Shown: one piece after another, positions 17,010 through 31,368 of the stretch
Layout of the letters: each line of letters opens with the position of its first letter
Numbering within the stretch: position 1 is the stretch's first letter
Source: a candidate division FCPU426 bacterium
GTDB lineage: Bacteria; Oederibacteriota; Muellerivitia; Muellerivitales; Muellerivitaceae
DNA length: 64,000 nucleotides
Assembly (NCBI GenBank): GCA_030041545.1
Contig: JASHNQ010000015.1
Span: 1-64,000, forward strand
Direction: 5' to 3'
The notes under the pieces: generated by a model
What the model saw: only the letters and a program-made list of their open reading frames with translations
Told to the model about the DNA's origin: nothing
The model's database searches: none
Made by a program: the position numbers and the translations under genes

Positions 17010-18419
17010 ATGCCCGAGTACCACCGAAGGAAAACCGACCGCCTTTTAAGCGACTCCCTCAACCAACTGGGCCGGGGGGTTTCGGAAGCGGCCGTGGAAC
17101 TCAACCCCATCCACCCCAAAAGCTCCGTCCAAGCCTCCCTTCTTTTGGCGGCCGTGGCCGCGGGCCTTTGCGCCTATCTTTATGCCCAAGCCACCGCGCT
17201 CATCCAGGCCCTTTATGACCTGATTTTCAGGGACCACCCTTATCTCCTGTCCCTGGCCTGCCCCGCTCTTTTCGTCGCCGCCGCCTGGCTGGTCGTGCGG
17301 TTCGCGCCCGCCGCCAAAGGCAGCGGCATCCCCCAGGTGTTGCAGGCCATCGAGGGGACCGAACCCGGGGACCCGAAAGTCACGGGTGGCCAACTGGTCT
17401 CCATGAGGACCTCGGTCCTGAAAGTGGCTTCCAGCCTCGTGGGCATCCTGGGCGGGGCCTCCATCGGAAGGGAAGGCCCGACCGTGCAGGTGGCCTCCTC
17501 GGTTTTCGCCTTCGCGGCGCGTCATGCCCGGCGCTTTTTCGGGTCGCTGGACTTCCAGTCCTACCTCATCGCGGGGGCCTCGGCGGGCATTTCGGCGGCC
17601 TTTAACACCCCCATCGCGGGCATCCTCTTCGCCCTGGAGGAAATCGCGGAACAAACCTTCGCCCAGTTCAAGCGCGCGGTCATGCTCGCCGTCATCGTGG
17701 GCGGCATCACGGCCCAGGCCATCGGCGGCAACTACCTTTACTTCGGCCACCCTTCCATCCAGAACCCCTCGGCCTCCATTTACCCGGTCTCCCTGTTCTT
17801 GGGACTGTTGGGCGGCTTGTTCGGCGGGCTTTTTTCCATGATCCTCACGCGGCCCCGCCTTTCCATCCTGCCTTCCCGGTGGTGGACGCGGGCCCTCTCC
17901 TGCGGCCTTCTGGTCGCCCTCCTGAACCTGCTGACCCACGCGGACACCTCGGGTTCGAGCTATGACGTGACCCGCCGGTTCATGGACGCCACCCGGGGAA
18001 CGCTTCCACCCCTCTTGTTTCCGGCGAAATTCCTCACCACCGTCTTCTCCTATCTCTCGGGCATGGCCGGGGGCATATTTTCCCCCTCCCTCTCCATCGG
18101 CGCGGGGATGGGCGTGACCTCCGCCCAAATCCTCCACGTGCCGGACTTGAAGGCCTGCGCCCTGATCGGCATGGTGGCCTTTTTCTCCGGCGTGGTGCAG
18201 GCCCCCTTGACGTCGGTCATCATCGTGATGGAAATGACCGACCAGAGCCTCCTCCTGATCCCCTTCATGCTGGCGGCTTTCCTGGCCCAGGGCATTGGCC
18301 GGCTCTTGATGCCGGTGCCGCTGTACCACCGCCTGGCCGAGATGGAAATGGAAAAGGCGGGAAAGAAGCAAGAATTCTTAACCGCGAAGGCGCGAAGAGC
18401 GCGAAAAAAGGACTCGTAA
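17010..18419 (+). CDS. ClC-type chloride channel or transporter
   Basis: The 469-residue polytopic protein has all the selectivity-filter motifs of ClC proteins: KGSGIPQ, GGASIGREGPTVQ (with the gating Glu), an FNTPIAGILFALEE helix and GMAGGIFSPSLSIGAGMG. It should move chloride, or chloride for protons, across the inner membrane. No CBS domains follow. GGAAGG at 17001-17006 fixes the start at 17010. The last 13 or so residues (LTAKARRARKKDS) are encoded by an intergenic repeat (18381-18487), so the native C-terminus was probably replaced or extended by the repeat. Confidence 0.92.
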   Translation: MPEYHRRKTDRLLSDSLNQLGRGVSEAAVELNPIHPKSSVQASLLLAAVAAGLCAYLYAQATALIQALYDLIFRDHPYLLSLACPALFVAAAWLVVRFAPAAKGSGIPQVLQAIEGTEPGDPKVTGGQLVSMRTSVLKVASSLVGILGGASIGREGPTVQVASSVFAFAARHARRFFGSLDFQSYLIAGASAGISAAFNTPIAGILFALEEIAEQTFAQFKRAVMLAVIVGGITAQAIGGNYLYFGHPSIQNPSASIYPVSLFLGLLGGLFGGLFSMILTRPRLSILPSRWWTRALSCGLLVALLNLLTHADTSGSSYDVTRRFMDATRGTLPPLLFPAKFLTTVFSYLSGMAGGIFSPSLSIGAGMGVTSAQILHVPDLKACALIGMVAFFSGVVQAPLTSVIIVMEMTDQSLLLIPFMLAAFLAQGIGRLLMPVPLYHRLAEMEMEKAGKKQEFLTAKARRARKKDS

Positions 18420-19804: not shown

Positions 19805-19976
19805 TCACCACGAAGTACACATGCCGACCTTCCATAAAGCTGTTAAAGGGGTCGGTATAGTACCGGTTTCATTAACTCCTTTAAGGTGAATCGGCACAAA
19901 GGACACGAAGTAAAATGCCTTAAGTGTTCCTGACATTTTTATGCCACACTTTGTGCCCTTCGTGACCTTTGTGGTA
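19805..19976. repeat. CACGAAGG-type hairpin with interrupted left arm
   Basis: The right arm (19947-19976, ending CCTTTGTGGTA) pairs with a left arm split into CACCACGAAGTACAC (19806-19820) and GGCACAAAGGACACGAAG (19893-19910). About 72 unrelated bases separate the two pieces and carry their own imperfect inverted repeat (GCCGACC and GGTCGG). It lies between two convergent genes. Confidence 0.7.
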
Positions 19977-25012: not shown

Positions 25013-26056
25013 TTATTGCTTTTTATAGTACTCCGCTTCGTCCGGCACGGCCTTGGTGAAATCCGGGTACCCGCCCTTGTCGTCGTGGTCGTTCCAGTCG
25101 GTCACCTTGCCCGTTTCCGCGTTTAACACGTAAATCACGTTTTGGGACTCGGGGCCGGTCCCGGAAAAATGCACCGCCGCCATGACCATGCGTTTGTGGT
25201 TTTCCCGGAAAAGGGCGAGGGACATGTCCTGGGAAGGCCCCGGCGCGAAGGGCAGGTGGGTTTTCCAATCCAGCTGTTTTTGGGGTCCGTAGCAAAGCAC
25301 GTCGCCCGTGGCCGCGTCGGCCACGTAGGTGTTGGCCCAGGGGTCGCGCACCGCGTCCCGGATGTCCGCCAGGCCGTCCGCCTTCCCAAGCTGCCAGACG
25401 ACCTTGTCCTCCTGGAAGAAAACCTCCTCCACCGTGGAATCCTGGAGAACGACGAGGAAGTTTCCGCTGTCCGTGCAAAGGTGCACCCGCCGGGGCGTGG
25501 CGGCCAGTTGGTACTCCCAGCGGATTTTGGGGTTCCGGGTCTTGGCGTCGGCCAAAAAAATCCGCTGGTTGAGCGAATCCGCGGCCAGGACGAGGGTGGG
25601 GTTGTCCTTCTCGTCCCAATCGGCCACCACCGCGCTTTCCACCGCCACGCCGGGCAATTGGCCCCAATGCCACACCACGCGGCAACCCTTCCAGACCTTG
25701 CGCAGCAGCAGCACCTGCCGGGAGCCTCCCGTGACCAGGTAATAGCCGGGAAGGGGCTGGGGCTGGATGTCCTTCAAGGGGCCGTCCAGGGCGTAGTCCC
25801 AATCGGTGTGGTTGCGGAGGACATGGAAGACCGTGTTGTGCTTTGTCCCGCAAAGCACCACGGTGGGAAAGGCGGGCTTTGCCGCCGGCTCCTCGGCAAA
25901 GGCAACGGAAATCCTAAATGGAACCACGAAGGCACAAAGGGCACAAAGAAAACCAAAACAAAATATTTTGTTTGAACCCGGTTTTTCTATTAATGGTTTT
26001 CGAAGTTCTTGGTGCCCTTCGTGCCTTCGTGGTTCAATCGGTTTAAGGTTTTTCAT
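25013..26056 (-). CDS. Secreted beta-propeller-like protein with repeat-derived N-terminus
   Basis: The 347-residue protein has no recognised family, but repeated strands such as YYLVTGGSRQVLLLRK, LVLAADSLNQRIFLADAKT and NTYVADAATGDVLCYGP suggest a propeller. The N-terminal 60 residues are encoded by both arms of a CACGAAGG-type repeat. One arm gives PRRHEGHQEL, the other gives FLCALCAFVVPF, which forms the hydrophobic core of the signal peptide (cut near AFA/EEP). The ATG at 26056 overlaps the stop of the upstream cyclic-nucleotide gene (ATGA). Confidence 0.68.
   Translation of the reverse strand: MKNLKPIEPRRHEGHQELRKPLIEKPGSNKIFCFGFLCALCAFVVPFRISVAFAEEPAAKPAFPTVVLCGTKHNTVFHVLRNHTDWDYALDGPLKDIQPQPLPGYYLVTGGSRQVLLLRKVWKGCRVVWHWGQLPGVAVESAVVADWDEKDNPTLVLAADSLNQRIFLADAKTRNPKIRWEYQLAATPRRVHLCTDSGNFLVVLQDSTVEEVFFQEDKVVWQLGKADGLADIRDAVRDPWANTYVADAATGDVLCYGPQKQLDWKTHLPFAPGPSQDMSLALFRENHKRMVMAAVHFSGTGPESQNVIYVLNAETGKVTDWNDHDDKGGYPDFTKAVPDEAEYYKKQ
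25921..26036. repeat. CACGAAGG-type hairpin inside a coding region
   Basis: 28-bp arms at 25921-25948 and 26009-26036 pair with two mismatches, both starting from GAACCACGAAGG outward. The 60-base spacer is AT-rich. The whole element is translated as the N-terminus of the propeller-like protein. Confidence 0.85.
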
Positions 26057-26529
26057 GTGCACCAGAACCGGATGGTCTCGAAGGCCCGGTTGGCTTCCCG
26101 GATGCGCGAACAGAGGGTCACCACCAGCATGTCCTGGATGCGCAGGGCGGTGGCCGGGTTCTCCCGCTTGAGTTTCTCGTAATCCGAGTGGGAAAGAAAA
26201 AAAAGAACGGCTTCGGAATCCGCCACGGCGTCCGCTGACCGGGGTTCCCCGTCCACCAGGGCCATTTCCCCGAAAATCTGCCCCGCGGTGAGGACCGTCA
26301 GGAGCTGTTCCTGTTTTTCCCTGCGCCCCTCCGGCGTCACCTGGCGGCTGATGCGGATTTTGCCCGACCGCACCCAGTAAAACCCGTCCCCGGGGTCGTT
26401 CTCCTTGAAAACCGCGGCACCCGCCTCCCGCCCGATCTCCCTCAAAAGCTCCGCAAGGATCTTCCAATCCGGCTCCTTCAGGCCCCGGTAGGGCGCGGCA
26501 TCCTTGAAAACGGACAGGTCAACGGGCAT
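26053..26529 (-). CDS. Stand-alone cyclic-nucleotide-binding domain protein
   Basis: The 158-residue protein is one cNMP-binding domain: GDGFYWVRSGKIRI, then the phosphate-binding cassette GQIFGEMALVDGEPRSADA with the conserved Glu and Arg. No DNA-binding helix-turn-helix follows, so it is not a Crp-type regulator. It may act on a partner protein. I place the start at 26529, because GGAGG lies six bases upstream. Residues further upstream would be encoded by a repeat arm. Its stop overlaps the start of the propeller gene. Confidence 0.82.
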   Translation of the reverse strand: MPVDLSVFKDAAPYRGLKEPDWKILAELLREIGREAGAAVFKENDPGDGFYWVRSGKIRISRQVTPEGRREKQEQLLTVLTAGQIFGEMALVDGEPRSADAVADSEAVLFFLSHSDYEKLKRENPATALRIQDMLVVTLCSRIREANRAFETIRFWCT

Positions 26530-26546
26530 TCCAACCTCCAACAAAA

Positions 26547-26645
26547 TGAACCACGAAGGCACTAAGGGCACCAAGAAATAACAAATCTGACTTTTTTCCC
26601 TGGGCCATGATCGTCCTTTGTGCCCTTCGTGTCTTTGTGGTTCAA
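26547..26645. repeat. CACGAAGG-type hairpin, solo copy
   Basis: Arms at 26547-26575 (TGAACCACGAAGGCAC...) and 26616-26645 (...GTCTTTGTGGTTCAA) are near-perfect inverted copies around a 40-base spacer. It lies directly upstream of the cyclic-nucleotide gene. Confidence 0.85.
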
Positions 26646-26682
26646 TTATTCAATTTTTTTGCGGTTAAGTCTCATGAAAAGG

Positions 26683-27465
26683 TCAGGTCAGCAGGTTAGG
26701 ATATTCCCGCGTGGCCAGGGCCCAGATGAAAAGGGACGCGCCCAGGAGCACGCTCCCATCCAACAGCCCTTGGGTATAATCCGGATCCAGCAAAAGCCCC
26801 CTCAGGCCGTCCACCAGGTAGCTCATGGGGTTGGCTTTCGCCGCCACCTGCATCCAAGTAGGAAGGATGGGAAGGGGGTAAAGGGCGCTGGAAAGGAAGA
26901 AAAGAGGCATGGTCACCAACTGGCCGATCCCCATCATCCGGTCCCGGGTCTTCACCAGGGCGGCGATGACCATGGAAAACCCGGAGAAAAAAGCCGACCC
27001 CAGCACCACGAAGACGAACAACCCCAGGGCCCGGTCCCAACCCCATTGAAGGTGGATACCCAGGAGAAAGGCCACCAGCAGCACCACCACCAACTGGCTG
27101 AGGGATTTGGCCGTGGAGGCCAGCATCTTGCCCAGGACCAGGGCCGAGCGCTCAATGGGCGTGGTGAGGATCTTCTGAAGGAGTCCCATGTCCCTCTCCC
27201 AGATGATGGACAGGCCGTTGAAGATGGAAACGAAGGTGATGGCCTGGGCCAGGATGCCCGGCGTCAGGAAGGCCTGGTAGTCGCCCCCCGCTTCGGGCAC
27301 GGCCTTCAGGCGGCTGAAAGCCCCGCCGAAGAGGAGAAGCCAGAGGACCGGCTGGACGCTGCGGGAAAGCACCTCCACCGGATCCTTGGCCATCTTGATC
27401 ACTTCCAACTCGATGATGACCGAAACGTGGTGAAGGTAAAGGACGACGTAGTTATGTTTTTTCAT
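26683..27465 (-). CDS. ABC-2 type transporter permease
   Basis: The 260-residue protein has six membrane segments and the ABC-2 signature IIWERDMGLLQKILTTPIERSALVLGKMLAS followed by RDRMMGIGQLVTMPLFFLSSALYP, as in DrrB-like drug or polymer exporters. Its ATPase partner is almost certainly the gene at 28688-29488 on the same strand. The two are now separated by an AT-rich gene on the opposite strand. Confidence 0.88.
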   Translation of the reverse strand: MKKHNYVVLYLHHVSVIIELEVIKMAKDPVEVLSRSVQPVLWLLLFGGAFSRLKAVPEAGGDYQAFLTPGILAQAITFVSIFNGLSIIWERDMGLLQKILTTPIERSALVLGKMLASTAKSLSQLVVVLLVAFLLGIHLQWGWDRALGLFVFVVLGSAFFSGFSMVIAALVKTRDRMMGIGQLVTMPLFFLSSALYPLPILPTWMQVAAKANPMSYLVDGLRGLLLDPDYTQGLLDGSVLLGASLFIWALATREYPNLLT

Positions 27466-27656
27466 CTTTTAAATCCTTTAACGTAAAGACGCTAAACCAC
27501 AAAATTATTAGGTAGGAAAAAATCAATAAATTTTGAGCTTTTAACCCGGACTTTTCGGATGAAATTTCTATCACATTTATAACAGTATAATAAGGCAGCG
27601 TTTGGTTACATAAATAACGCTTTTTTGTTTTTAGGATCACGAGAAGGGAAAACGCG

Positions 27657-28586
27657 ATGGATAGATCTGTTCATTTTTGGGTGGCTTTGACCTATTTGTT
27701 AATCGCCGGAATATTTGGATATCAGACTTTTCGTCATACTGAAACAGCGGTACATGTTCTTTCAAAAGTATTCGAAATTGATAATTGGAAATATATATTT
27801 GCAGAAGAGGAACCAAATTTGATCGGGAAAATTATTCAGGGCCATCATTTAATTGGGCCTTTAATCGCTCCTCAAGTCAAAAATTTTATCAATCAAACTT
27901 TCGATCTCCCCTCCTTAACAAAAGTAAAACAGGACACGGACAAAATCCCAGGTTTAAAAATTCAGATCGAAAAAGAGGGCAAAAAATCAAGCTTATGGTC
28001 GTGGATTTTAATTGCAATAAGTTTTATTTATTTCATTTTAGTGATGGCATTTTTTAAAAAATCGAGAATTAAAAATATACTTTATTCGCTAACAAACATT
28101 TCTATTGTTTCTTTTGTTGTTGGGATAACTACACCCGCATTAATGATTGTTGCCATGTCACCCAAAACACAATATTTGCCTTCAGCGGTTTTACATTATG
28201 AAATAAGAAGTGTCTTGGGTGTTATTTCCAAATTATTTTCATCAGGCCATTGGTTTGTTGCATCCGCTTTAACACTTTTTAGTATTCTTATCCCAATTTC
28301 TAAGGCGATTTTGACTTTATATGCCACGGAATTCGCTTCATTATCTGCAAAGTTAACAATCGCTAAATTTCTACATTTAATCGGAAAATGGTCTATGGCT
28401 GATGTTTTTGTGGCGGCTTTATTACTGGTGAGCTTTGCCATCAAAGCCGACCAAACCACCCAAGCTTATCTATTCCGAGGCTTCTATTATTTCTTGGCTT
28501 ACTGTTTATTGAGTATGGTTTCAACAACTTTGCTGGAATATCAGGTTAATAAAATCGACCAAACACTAATAGTTCAACAAGGTTAG
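27657..28586 (+). CDS. AT-rich PqiA-domain membrane protein
   Basis: The 309-residue protein has an N-terminal helix, a soluble stretch and a C-terminal membrane domain matching PqiA: HYEIRSVLGVISKLFSSGHW, FSILIPISKAILTLY and LIGKWSMADVFVAALLLVSFAI. In Escherichia coli, PqiA works with an MCE protein in lipid transport between membranes. No MCE gene is nearby. Base composition is much more AT-rich than its neighbours, and the gene lies between the two halves of an ABC exporter on the opposite strand, so recent acquisition is likely. Confidence 0.8.
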   Translation: MDRSVHFWVALTYLLIAGIFGYQTFRHTETAVHVLSKVFEIDNWKYIFAEEEPNLIGKIIQGHHLIGPLIAPQVKNFINQTFDLPSLTKVKQDTDKIPGLKIQIEKEGKKSSLWSWILIAISFIYFILVMAFFKKSRIKNILYSLTNISIVSFVVGITTPALMIVAMSPKTQYLPSAVLHYEIRSVLGVISKLFSSGHWFVASALTLFSILIPISKAILTLYATEFASLSAKLTIAKFLHLIGKWSMADVFVAALLLVSFAIKADQTTQAYLFRGFYYFLAYCLLSMVSTTLLEYQVNKIDQTLIVQQG

Positions 28587-28687
28587 TAAACACCTAAACA
28601 CAAAATGTGTTCGTTTGATTTTGATAAAATTCAGATCGTTCCTTGTGAATCTACGGTGAAAATTTTAACCTTTACGGTTTTAAATGT

Positions 28688-29488
28688 TCAGCCAAGGCGT
28701 CGTGCGGTGCGGCGGATGCGCTTGACATCGGAAAGGTCTCCTTGTTCCTCGGGTTCCAGGTGCCCCACAAAATGCACGAAAAGCTCGTCCATGTCGGCCC
28801 GGGGCATCCGGGCCTTCTTGCGCAACTCGGCCAGGGTGCCCATGACCTCGATACTCCCCTTGTTCATGATGGCGATGCGGTCGCAGAGCTCTTGGGCCTC
28901 GTCCATGTAATGGGTGGTCAGGAACAGAGTCATGCCGTATTCCTTTTGCAGGCCCCGGATATGGCCCCAAAGGGCCTTGCGGGCCACCGGGTCCAAGCCC
29001 ACCGTGGGCTCGTCCAGGAAAATCACCGCCGGGTGGTGCAGGATGGCCTGGCCCACCTCCAGCCGCCGCACCATGCCGCCCGAATAATGGGCTACCAGGC
29101 GCTGGGCCGCCTCCGTTAGGTCCATGAGTTCCAGGATGCGGGGGATGCGCTCCTTCAATTCCTTGGCGCCCATCCCGTAGAGCTTTCCGAAGATCATCAG
29201 GTTTTCATAACCCGTCAGGGCGCCGTCCACCGAAAGGGATTGGGGCACGTAGCCGATGGATTCCCGGATGTGGCCCGGCTGCCTCAGTGAAAAGCCGTTC
29301 ACCCAGGCTTCTCCGGAATCGGGCGCTAGGAGCGTGATGAGCATCTTGATGGTGGTGGACTTGCCTGCGCCGTTGGGGCCCAGTAGCGCGAAGCATTCAC
29401 CGGGGGCCACCTTGAAGCTGACATCCTTGACAGCTTGCACTTCCTTGAAACTCTTGTTTAGATTTTGGACTTTAATAATGGGTTCCAT
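28688..29488 (-). CDS. ABC transporter ATP-binding protein (DrrA-like)
   Basis: The 266-residue ATPase has Walker A GPNGAGKST, signature HYSGGMVRRLEVG, Walker B VIFLDEPTVGLD and the H-loop TTHYMDEA. It resembles DrrA/CcmA-type exporters that pair with ABC-2 permeases. The ATG at 29488 follows GAGG eight bases upstream. An in-frame upstream extension would be encoded by a repeat and is rejected. Its permease is at 26683-27465. Confidence 0.92.
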   Translation of the reverse strand: MEPIIKVQNLNKSFKEVQAVKDVSFKVAPGECFALLGPNGAGKSTTIKMLITLLAPDSGEAWVNGFSLRQPGHIRESIGYVPQSLSVDGALTGYENLMIFGKLYGMGAKELKERIPRILELMDLTEAAQRLVAHYSGGMVRRLEVGQAILHHPAVIFLDEPTVGLDPVARKALWGHIRGLQKEYGMTLFLTTHYMDEAQELCDRIAIMNKGSIEVMGTLAELRKKARMPRADMDELFVHFVGHLEPEEQGDLSDVKRIRRTARRLG

Positions 29489-29505
29489 GAGCACCTCAAA
29501 AACGA

Positions 29506-29977
29506 TTGAACCACAAAGACACAAAGGGCACCAAGAACGTCAAAATTACAAAATGACTCTTTGAATCCCATCTTTAATAAGCGGCTCATTGAAATTTATA
29601 AGTAACCCCAATCTTTGTTTGGTTACTTTTAAATAAGTTATGACTTGGGCTTCATGAATCGGCAATAAAGCTTCAACAGCTTTTAACTCAACAATTAATT
29701 TTCCTTCTACGAATAAATCGATTCGGAATCCAACGTCTAATTTTACTTCTTCATATACCAATGGAACGGGGATTTCGACTTCGACCTTTAATCCTCTTTT
29801 TCTCAATTCATATGCTAAGCAAGCTTGGTAAGCACTTTCCAAAAGTCCAGGACCAAAAATTCGATGAATTTTAAAGGCCGCATCAACAACCTGGCCGGCA
29901 GTCCTCTCTGTTTCCGGATCAATCCTTTCAAAATGCTTCATGTCTTCCTTAGTGCCCTTTGTGCCTTTGTGGTTCAA
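29506..29977. mobile_element. 472-bp candidate element: 30-bp terminal inverted repeats around a GxxExxY gene
   Basis: Terminal repeats at 29506-29535 and 29948-29977 are inverted copies with two mismatches, and both begin TTGAACCACAAAG. They belong to the same family as the solo hairpins at 25921 and 26547. The only gene between them is a GxxExxY protein. No target duplication is obvious. The right end supplies the TGA stop of the neighbouring DUF815 gene. Confidence 0.6.
29546..29941 (-). CDS. GxxExxY family protein (PD-(D/E)XK nuclease-like)
   Basis: The 131-residue protein has the name-giving motif in GPGLLESAYQACLAYEL (residues 26-42) and a PD-(D/E)XK-like core in FRIDLFVEGKLIVELKAVEAL. 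These proteins are predicted nucleases of unknown role. I start at the ATG at 29941. A further 12 residues (MNHKGTKGTKED) would be encoded by the repeat arm. It is AT-richer than its neighbours and lies entirely inside inverted repeats, so it may help move or maintain that repeat family. Confidence 0.88.
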   Translation of the reverse strand: MKHFERIDPETERTAGQVVDAAFKIHRIFGPGLLESAYQACLAYELRKRGLKVEVEIPVPLVYEEVKLDVGFRIDLFVEGKLIVELKAVEALLPIHEAQVITYLKVTKQRLGLLINFNEPLIKDGIQRVIL

Positions 29978-31368
29978 CTGACTTTGCCTTTCAAGTCGTT
30001 GATGAATTGCCGGGCCGTGCGGCCCGAGCGGACATTATTAGCCTTTTCCCATTGTAAAGCCCGGGCATGCAGCTCGGCGGGCGGCATCTTGATGCCCTCG
30101 GCCTTGGCCCAACCGTCCACCATCTTCAGGTAGGTCTCCTGGTCCGGGGTATAAAAGGAAATCACCAACCCGAAGCGGTCCGAAAGGGATAATTTTTCCT
30201 CCACCGTGTCCGCCCCATGGATTTCCCCTTCCTTTTGGACGCCCCCCGCCCGGTCGCCGAAGAACTCCCGGATCAAGTGGCGACGGTTGGACGTGGCGAT
30301 AATAATCACGTTGGGGGGCGTGGCCTCCACCGTTCCTTCCAAAAGCGCCTTCAACCCTTTATAAGAAGTTTCATTCTCCTCAAAAGAGAGGTCGTCCACG
30401 AAAAGGATAAATTTTTCAGGCCGTCCCCTCAAGAAGGGCAGGATGGCCGGGTATTCGTTCAAATGGGAAGGATGCACTTCCACCAGCCTTAAACCCCTGC
30501 CCTGGTATTTGTTCAAAAGGGCCTTCACGGTGGAAGACTTCCCTGTCCCCCTTTCCCCGTAAAGCAGGGCGTTGTTGGCCCCTTTGCCGGACACGAACGC
30601 CTCGATGTTTTCGATCAAAGGCTTGCGTTGTTCGTCATAGCCGATCAGGTTTTCCAGGCGGATAGGGTCCACGGCTTCCACGCCCACGAGGCGCCCTTTC
30701 CCGCCTTCCTCCATCTGCCAACGAAAAGCCCGATAGAGGCCAAACAATCCCCATCCGTTCTTGTGGAAATATTCGGCCAGGTTGGCCAGGAGCGGGTTTC
30801 CCTTGTTGGAGGAGAGGAGTTCCGCCTTCATCTTGCGCCGGGCTTCGACGGCCGGGGGAAGGCCCTTGCCCCGCTTGGGGGCGACGACCCCTTCCAGGGA
30901 GGGTGCTTCACTCTTGCCCAAAAGACCGGACTTCTTGAGGAATTCCCCTTCCCAGTCCGTTTTCAGGATTTTTTGGACCGCGTCCAGTTCCCGCGCATAG
31001 CTTTGGTGCAGCGAGGGGCTGATCTCGGAAAGCGGCGCCAATTCGGCCTTGCGGTGCAGGGGGTTGTCGTCCTCCAAGAGCCGCTCCAGGAAGTAGTCCT
31101 GCAGGAGGGTTCCCACCCGGGGGTGGGCGGCGAATTCCTGATGGTCCACCAGGGCTTTCCAAAGCGCGCCGTAGCGCCTCAAGCCCTTCGCGGGTTCAGT
31201 GTCCTTTTTGGCCAGCCATTTGAGTAGTCGTACGAACTTCAAACCAGCCTCATCGCGGAAAATTCCGGCCAAAAGCACAAGGAAATCGAGGGCTTCCAAG
31301 GCCCGCTTGGCCGCGGCGGAGGCTTTGGGGAGTGGATTTTCTTTGGGGGTTTTGGACTTCGAGGCCAT
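29974..31368 (-). CDS. DUF815-family AAA+ ATPase
   Basis: The 464-residue protein has a helical N-terminal half and an AAA+ domain with Walker A LYGERGTGKSSTVKALL near 270, Walker B FILFVDDLSFEE near 320, and sensor motif IIIATSNRRHLI with GDRAGG after it. This matches DUF815 (YifB/ClpX-like group of unknown function). Its TGA stop is formed by the end base pairs of the adjacent repeat element, so the native stop may have been replaced. Confidence 0.88.
   Translation of the reverse strand: MASKSKTPKENPLPKASAAAKRALEALDFLVLLAGIFRDEAGLKFVRLLKWLAKKDTEPAKGLRRYGALWKALVDHQEFAAHPRVGTLLQDYFLERLLEDDNPLHRKAELAPLSEISPSLHQSYARELDAVQKILKTDWEGEFLKKSGLLGKSEAPSLEGVVAPKRGKGLPPAVEARRKMKAELLSSNKGNPLLANLAEYFHKNGWGLFGLYRAFRWQMEEGGKGRLVGVEAVDPIRLENLIGYDEQRKPLIENIEAFVSGKGANNALLYGERGTGKSSTVKALLNKYQGRGLRLVEVHPSHLNEYPAILPFLRGRPEKFILFVDDLSFEENETSYKGLKALLEGTVEATPPNVIIIATSNRRHLIREFFGDRAGGVQKEGEIHGADTVEEKLSLSDRFGLVISFYTPDQETYLKMVDGWAKAEGIKMPPAELHARALQWEKANNVRSGRTARQFINDLKGKVS

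Follow-up and report, generated by a model that had tools for sequence, protein, structure and literature searches.

A gene of the GxxExxY family was examined in a 64,000-nt stretch of contig JASHNQ010000015.1 from a candidate division FCPU426 bacterium (the whole stretch is referred to here as the window), where it is enclosed by inverted repeats that are also present nearby in gene-less hairpins. On a slight balance of probability, the locus represents a partnership resembling that of REPINs (hairpin-forming doublets of repetitive extragenic palindromic, or REP, sequences) and REP-associated tyrosine transposases (RAYTs), in which a resident nuclease of the PD-(D/E)XK QxxxY branch is paired with its own hairpin family and the enzyme itself is unrelated. 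A first-pass annotation of the window had interpreted the layout as an autonomous parent element with gene-less derivatives. Part of that interpretation is supported by an excess of inverted flanks around GxxExxY genes, by the co-occurrence of gene and repeat, and by the copying of solo hairpins, while the self-moving parent, the single repeat type and the role of GxxExxY as sole family are not.

Architecture of the GxxExxY element

The two arms of the gene-bearing element (Table 1) were 80% complementary across 46 nt and enclosed a single open reading frame (ORF; 29546-29977, minus strand). Arms of the two solo hairpins in the window were 80-91% identical to those of the gene, confirming the match reported in the first-pass annotation. 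Its assignment of the enclosed gene to the PD-(D/E)XK-like GxxExxY proteins was likewise confirmed by profile searches, with scores of 145 bits for TIGR04256 GxxExxY (cut-off 35) and 140 bits for PF13366 PDDEXK_3 (cut-off 22); no other profile was matched, and no HUH domain was present. Each arm consists of degenerate units of 8-10 bp (ACCAC-AAAGG-CACAAAGG-GCACCAAG). In the longer version of the ORF the N-terminal MNHKGTKGTKED (first 12 residues) is translated repeat arm, and the right arm, read inward, is the untranslated leader or an artefactual N-terminus of the GxxExxY ORF.

Across the 3.8-Mb genome (G000), the arm pattern yielded 119 matches compared to 18 for the reversed pattern, mostly as convergent pairs ~55-145 bp apart (start to start). 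Five GxxExxY loci were found, three intact and two deleted remnants, all five with inverted ends and each with its own repeat dialect: CACAAAGGGCACCAAG (L001), GATGAATAGGATAAATGGGAT (L002), CACCGCGGAGACGCGAAG (L003), CACAGAGGGCACAGAG (L004), and GCCACAGATG... (L005, the weakest). Rather than the one CACGAAGG-type repeat initially proposed, many dialects exist, each tied to protein clades. Hairpins of G000 were treated as a sample and not as an exhaustive listing. A count of what lies between arms 200-1000 bp apart, in which only GxxExxY was found, is not independent evidence because the loci were chosen for GxxExxY; one candidate exception (L109:7046-7576) was rejected as GC-rich coding sequence with a chance pattern match.

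Inverted ends across genomes

Flanks were scored by the best inverted match between the 200 nt on either side of a gene, with a threshold of at least 16. As the first-pass annotation had anticipated, inverted repeats framed GxxExxY genes at a far higher rate than other genes (67-88% versus 5%). Inverted ends were present in 42 of 48 GxxExxY genes of relatives (88%) and in 26 of 39 from a sample of 339 genomes (67%), both sets being picked by protein profile only. Among named genomes collected by tblastn the count was 61 of 79, a sample possibly biased by the translated arm; restriction to matches starting after residue 13 gave 34/48. Control values were 26/481 for other ORFs in the same loci (5.4%) and 1.7% of 1370 spacing-matched random placements. 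Named hosts include Bacteroidota, Planctomycetota, Verrucomicrobiota, Chloroflexota, Acidobacteriota, Pseudomonadota, Cyanobacteria, Armatimonadota, and Geobacter, and many of the host genomes are metagenome-assembled or metagenome bins. No GxxExxY gene was found in phages; eight plasmid records carried one, all rated non-mobilizable.

Protein clades and repeat dialects

Dialects were placed in two coarse classes by unit ending (-AG/-CG versus -AT), with hand corrections made before the tree was seen. On a tree of 109 proteins the dialect label required one change, compared to a shuffled mean of 17.7. Addition of 28 later-found genes, classed by rule with one hand-corrected for strand, gave a tree of 135 proteins with six changes (shuffled mean 24.8; 0/500 shuffles as low); the first result was thus optimistic, but the association held. 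The association was also present within single genomes (L001 and L003 versus L002), and host phylogeny therefore cannot explain it.

In G172 (L246, L247), GxxExxY genes and fragments form a cluster, some in tandem ~0.5-1 kb apart, with arms (CGCAGATTTCGCAGAT) of the AT-type dialect within the AG protein clade.

Co-occurrence of gene and repeat

Repeat counts from degenerate patterns were compared to gene presence in the 339 genomes, all with at least 90% completeness. The richest genomes were defined by at least 50 AG-type matches at no less than 8x the reversed control. GxxExxY was present in 28 of these 29 genomes and in 55 of the 310 others (18%; p=3e-18), in line with the expectation of the first-pass annotation that repeat-rich genomes hold the gene, with G052 as the exception. 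Outside this phylum the corresponding values were 18/19 and 52/295, and relaxing the threshold to 20 or more matches at 4x the control gave 43/58 and 40/281. After subtraction of six matches per gene for the gene's own arms, a median of ~80 AG matches was left in the richest genomes. Genomes with AT-clade genes only had 0-7 AG-type matches. GAT-type repeats reached 7-30 matches in seven genomes with AT-clade genes and 0-2 elsewhere, and the deepest AT lineages use motifs other than the GAT type. Searches around G045 at the level of its phylum yielded a single genome.

These counts also bear on the possibility that another transposase, of the RAYT/IS200 Y1 type, moves the hairpins with GxxExxY as a passenger. 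Y1 transposases were found in 45 of 59 genomes, as such a mover would call for. However, G001 (63 AG matches) and G003 (126), both at least 98% complete, had no Y1 (PF01797) match, and a Y1 transposase or RAYT was rejected as the mover in these two genomes. Conversely, G010, G016, G019, and G031 contain 4-8 Y1 genes and 0-2 AG matches. The match between protein clade and dialect further argues against a passenger role, which we regard as very unlikely.

Two genomes showed other arrangements. In G052 (L201, L202, L205) CAC-AAG hairpins occur in tandem clusters, and the genome has 19 four-helix-bundle matches. G343 has 984 AG-type matches genome-wide, and three GxxExxY genes were seen; hairpin density was low in the 100 kb inspected, where spacers are mosaics of other repeat types, and intergenic mosaics (L257, L259, L261), resembling bacterial interspersed mosaic elements (BIMEs), join arms of several dialects (AG-type, AT-type, and GGCTATT heptamers).

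Copying of hairpins and persistence of the gene

Seventeen solo hairpins of G000 had arms 88% identical and spacers near random (52% identity versus 48% when shuffled). Three solos on different contigs (L035, L214, and L025) were alike across the whole ~110-bp unit, with spacers 75-82% identical, while their surroundings were essentially unrelated beyond ~12 nt. Since they share the spacer but not the surroundings, gene-less units have been copied within the genome, and this portion of the first-pass interpretation stands. The outer flanks of several hairpins (L025, L035, and L214) also contain an inverted CAAAGGC-like motif ~5-10 nt away from the arms, which might belong to the unit or mark a preferred target.

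The gene behaves differently from a parent that moves itself, as the first-pass annotation had it. Copies are old and in several cases orthologous between genera (L004=L043=L040=L159; L005=L041=L044=L059). Up to 11 paralogues occur per genome, including the tandem copies of G172, and those within one genome share 31-61% identity; near-identical copies within a genome were sought in the relatives and not found. Judged from substitution patterns, GxxExxY is under strong purifying selection, with a ratio of nonsynonymous to synonymous substitution (dN/dS) of 0.03-0.07 between old orthologues where synonymous sites are unsaturated; saturation affected many pairs, and two closer ones gave 0.27-0.28. 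Because the copies are old, divergent, and under purifying selection, GxxExxY looks like a resident enzyme serving the hairpins in trans.

Alternatively, gene and arms could be the sole mobile unit, the nuclease moving only itself and the solos being dead remnants of internal deletion. Partly deleted genes between intact arms were indeed seen in L004, L005, L159, L161, and L197. Against this decay, solo hairpins fall in a narrow size range (84-132 bp), a gene-less unit was copied with its spacer to other sites, within-genome paralogues are not recent copies, and solos far outnumber gene-bearing elements (~20 paired AG-type hairpins and two intact AG-type genes in G000). We regard it as fairly unlikely.

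Strong purifying selection and long vertical persistence would also suit a regulatory role, in which the arms act as control elements at the RNA or DNA level (as a terminator, in control of translation, or as a sink for the protein) and GxxExxY is a host enzyme that processes transcript hairpins in the manner of an RNase and does not move them. The hairpins are mostly intergenic and AT-flanked, and a Geobacter study annotated inverted pairs of tandem octamers as putative global regulator sites (PMC2700814). In addition, arm mismatches on the gene-sense strand favour G-T over A-C (228 versus 171, p=0.005). This excess could instead arise if Shine-Dalgarno-like purines are selected for in the 5' arm, and an RNA-only reading drawn from it was rejected as weak and confounded. 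By itself a regulatory role leaves unexplained both the copying of solos to unrelated sites and the clade-specific dialects across phyla, and it is judged unlikely.

The GxxExxY protein

Across 71 sequences, G30, G32, E35, Y38, D75, E85, K87, Y103, F117, and R128 were invariant, and Q99 was found in 70. These residues include D-x9-E-x-K and Q-x3-Y, the active-site pattern of the Cas4/RecB/lambda-exonuclease branch. An AlphaFold2 model (mean predicted local distance difference test score 94.5) gave Cas4, LHK-Exo, and lambda exonuclease as best Foldseek matches in the PDB (4ic1, 4r5q, 3sz4, 6m9k), with probabilities of 0.9-1.0, E values of 4e-3 and weaker, and template modelling (TM) scores of about 0.45. 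Both active-site residues and fold thus place the protein in the PD-(D/E)XK QxxxY branch, and the enzyme looks catalytically intact because the active-site pattern is kept on a predicted Cas4/lambda-exonuclease-like fold. No sequence relative was found among solved structures. The Cas4 profile match was weak (E=0.015), and C41 is the only nearly invariant cysteine, indicating that the four-cysteine Fe-S site of Cas4 is absent. Membership of Cas4 was rejected on this ground and on the window neighbours, which are transporter, cNMP (cyclic nucleoside monophosphate), and DUF815 genes and not CRISPR genes.

Proposed model

In the partnership considered here, GxxExxY would be a nuclease able to recognise arms of its own dialect once they are folded. 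Each arm comprises two to four degenerate 8-10-bp units that end in TTNAACCAC, and the arms are inverted either around the gene (~450 bp) or around a short variable spacer, giving the solo form of ~85-130 bp. Cutting of an extruded or single-stranded hairpin would occasionally let a unit copy or re-insert elsewhere; the gene would seldom move and is kept by selection. Direct recognition, cleavage, and a driving role of GxxExxY in copying are what we infer from these patterns.

Several observations weigh against this model. No length or offset of target-site duplication showed a clear excess among 154 elements, and the evidence for movement consists of old events. Within 200 nt, 12-33% of GxxExxY genes had no detectable flanking inverted repeat. 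G052 has 83 AG-type matches and no GxxExxY gene. The agreement of clade and dialect could arise by joint inheritance in the absence of recognition, mimicking co-evolution. Finally, nucleases of the QxxxY type are known for trimming or resecting DNA and are not known to act as transposases.

Comparison with known systems

A REPtron comprises a RAYT gene between inverted REPs together with scattered REPINs, which have conserved arms and varied spacers; RAYTs are transmitted vertically without making copies of themselves, and REPINs are more numerous in genomes that have a RAYT (PMC8049555, PMC3116915, PMC8266576). In the GxxExxY system, likewise, a single small nuclease gene is flanked by inverted repeats that are found elsewhere as gene-less doublets; the doublets form hairpins with conserved arms and diverse spacers, the repeat population is larger where the gene is present, and enzyme and repeat co-evolve. 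For a single-copy gene passed on vertically without copying itself the picture is mixed, since old orthologous insertions and low dN/dS agree with it, and up to 11 paralogues per genome and the tandem copies of G172 point the other way. It differs in its enzyme, which is a PD-(D/E)XK QxxxY protein and not an HUH Y1 transposase (no PF01797 match). By inspection, the repeats are tandem 8-10-bp units ending TTNAACCAC, with no GTAG/CGTC tag or 20-40-bp REP unit, and in contrast to the one gene of REPIN-RAYT systems several GxxExxY paralogues with different dialects occur per genome. Because most behavioural features recur but the defining HUH enzyme does not, the system is described as REPIN-RAYT-like and not as a member.

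Intervening sequences (IVSs) of 23S rRNA that encode S23 offer a second parallel. The Coxiella IVS has a 28-bp terminal stem, an S23 ORF, and GACAGAT heptamers, and shares with the GxxExxY element the terminal inverted repeats, long stem, small loop ORF with tandem heptamers close by, and a length of ~430 nt (PMC4990558). This geometry, together with four-helix-bundle genes that show the same layout genome-wide here, would fit an IVS-like unit spreading via RNA (stem and loop ORF), possibly by reverse transcription in trans. IVSs lie in 23S rRNA and encode a four-helix-bundle product, whereas the GxxExxY elements examined sit between ordinary protein genes and encode a fold of the DNA-nuclease type; spread via RNA is judged highly improbable.

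Other resemblances are partial. As with miniature inverted-repeat transposable elements and solo insertion sequence (IS) derivatives, gene-less forms share the ends of a gene-bearing element; unlike them, no DDE or HUH transposase and no target-site duplication was found, and it is not the gene-bearing form that proliferates. The 'multicopy nucleotide sequences' of Geobacter are intergenic multicopy hairpins with arms of tandem 7-8-bp repeats, but in the text consulted they are described as putative regulator sites with no protein family linked (PMC2700814). TAACTGA repeats are short intergenic tandem heptamers whose species distribution resembles that of the small accessory proteins XisH/XisI, but they are mostly direct and not inverted pairs framing a gene (PMC4679880). 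Cas4, lambda exonuclease, and LHK-Exo share the D-x9-E-x-K and Q-x3-Y active site; GxxExxY is only 131 aa, and no link to CRISPR or phage recombination genes was seen here. A literature search by repeat sequence returned unrelated papers only.

Other framed families and significance

Four-helix-bundle (TIGR02436/S23) genes show the same layout in other dialects, and 16 of 22 loci with usable flanks scored at least 18; GxxExxY is thus not the sole framed family. In an unselected look at small ORFs, clear framed cases were five four-helix-bundle genes (Table 1), IS200-type transposases, and one DUF559 gene. Framed four-helix-bundle loci outside rRNA (L164-L193) have their own short-tandem-unit dialects, e.g. 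GTTTATAAGGTTTGTAAAGTTT and GGGATTAGGGATCAGGGA. The DUF559 gene (L136:2768-3145), which is likewise PD-(D/E)XK-like, is enclosed by inverted repeats of the GGGGAGAGGG type, and DUF559 is a possible third family with the framed layout. It is close to an even matter, though somewhat short of it, whether GxxExxY represents a second class of nucleases that maintain repeats, with an unrelated, Cas4-like PD-(D/E)XK enzyme that keeps and copies hairpins of its own dialect in many phyla, maybe within a guild that includes four-helix-bundle/S23 and perhaps DUF559 proteins and accounts for many unexplained short-unit hairpins.

GxxExxY is a widespread family without an assigned function; in an open library of 5.39 million papers the name occurs in two, and the text retrieved gives no function. 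The hairpin link gives it a testable candidate substrate, accounts for the translated-repeat N-termini of its proteins, and suggests where many intergenic hairpins of unexplained origin come from. Should a Cas4-like nuclease indeed play the presumed part of a RAYT, partnerships of host nucleases and repeats arose more than once, with a bearing on the origin of Cas4-type adaptation nucleases.

Features and neighbours in the window

Table 1. Coordinates of GxxExxY-related features in the window and of framed four-helix-bundle genes at other loci
Feature	Position	Strand	Sequence, basis or remark
Left inverted arm of gene-bearing element	29506..29537	+	TTGAACCACAAAGACACAAAGGGCACCAAGAA
Right inverted arm of gene-bearing element	29945..29977	-	TTGA of the arm includes the stop codon of the neighbouring DUF815 gene
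GxxExxY gene	29546..29941	-	Likely ATG start 29941; longer TTG-start ORF reaches 29977
Solo (gene-less) hairpin, same dialect as window gene	25918..26038	.	Arms 91% complementary; within signal-peptide region of 25013- ORF
Solo hairpin, same dialect as window gene	26545..26646	.	Just upstream of cNMP-domain gene
Single arm, related dialect	18378..18408	+	AACCGCGAAGGCGCGAAGAGCGCG; resembles the ends of L003, the second AG-type GxxExxY gene in this genome
Single arm, CAC-AAG dialect	19947..19975	-	ACCACAAAGGTCACGAAGGGCACAAAG on minus strand
ABC (ATP-binding cassette) permease, PqiA-like gene and ABC ATPase	26683..29524	.	Flanked by two same-dialect elements; relatives join DUF815 directly to cNMP gene there
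Framed four-helix-bundle genes	L085:2420-2803, L089:1665-2009, L092:6266-6637, L123:8966-9430, L135:8013-8387		Inverted tandem-unit arms

The site of the window element was compared to relatives of other genera, and junction positions and timing are approximate. In G001, G003, and G006 the cNMP gene is abutted directly by DUF815, and in G005 the ABC ATPase comes after DUF815 without an intervening element. At this site G004 contains a GxxExxY element with an internal deletion, and the G007 gene (L147) also adjoins DUF815. The stop codon of the window DUF815 gene is part of the element end (TTGAACC, 29974-29980, including TTGA of the right arm), and in G004 it likewise comes from that genome's own element.

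An Rfam scan gave no match above the gathering score. Both window solos (25915-26045 and 26541-26650) had sub-threshold matches to mir-5881 (RF03975; 33-42 versus 87 bits), a family possibly built on such a repeat. The first solo hairpin appears to encode the hydrophobic core (..FLCALCAFVVPF..) of the signal peptide of the downstream gene (ORF 25013-26467, minus strand). In relatives the same signal-peptide spot holds other repeats, namely four-helix-bundle-like units in G001 and G003 and an AT-type repeat in G006.

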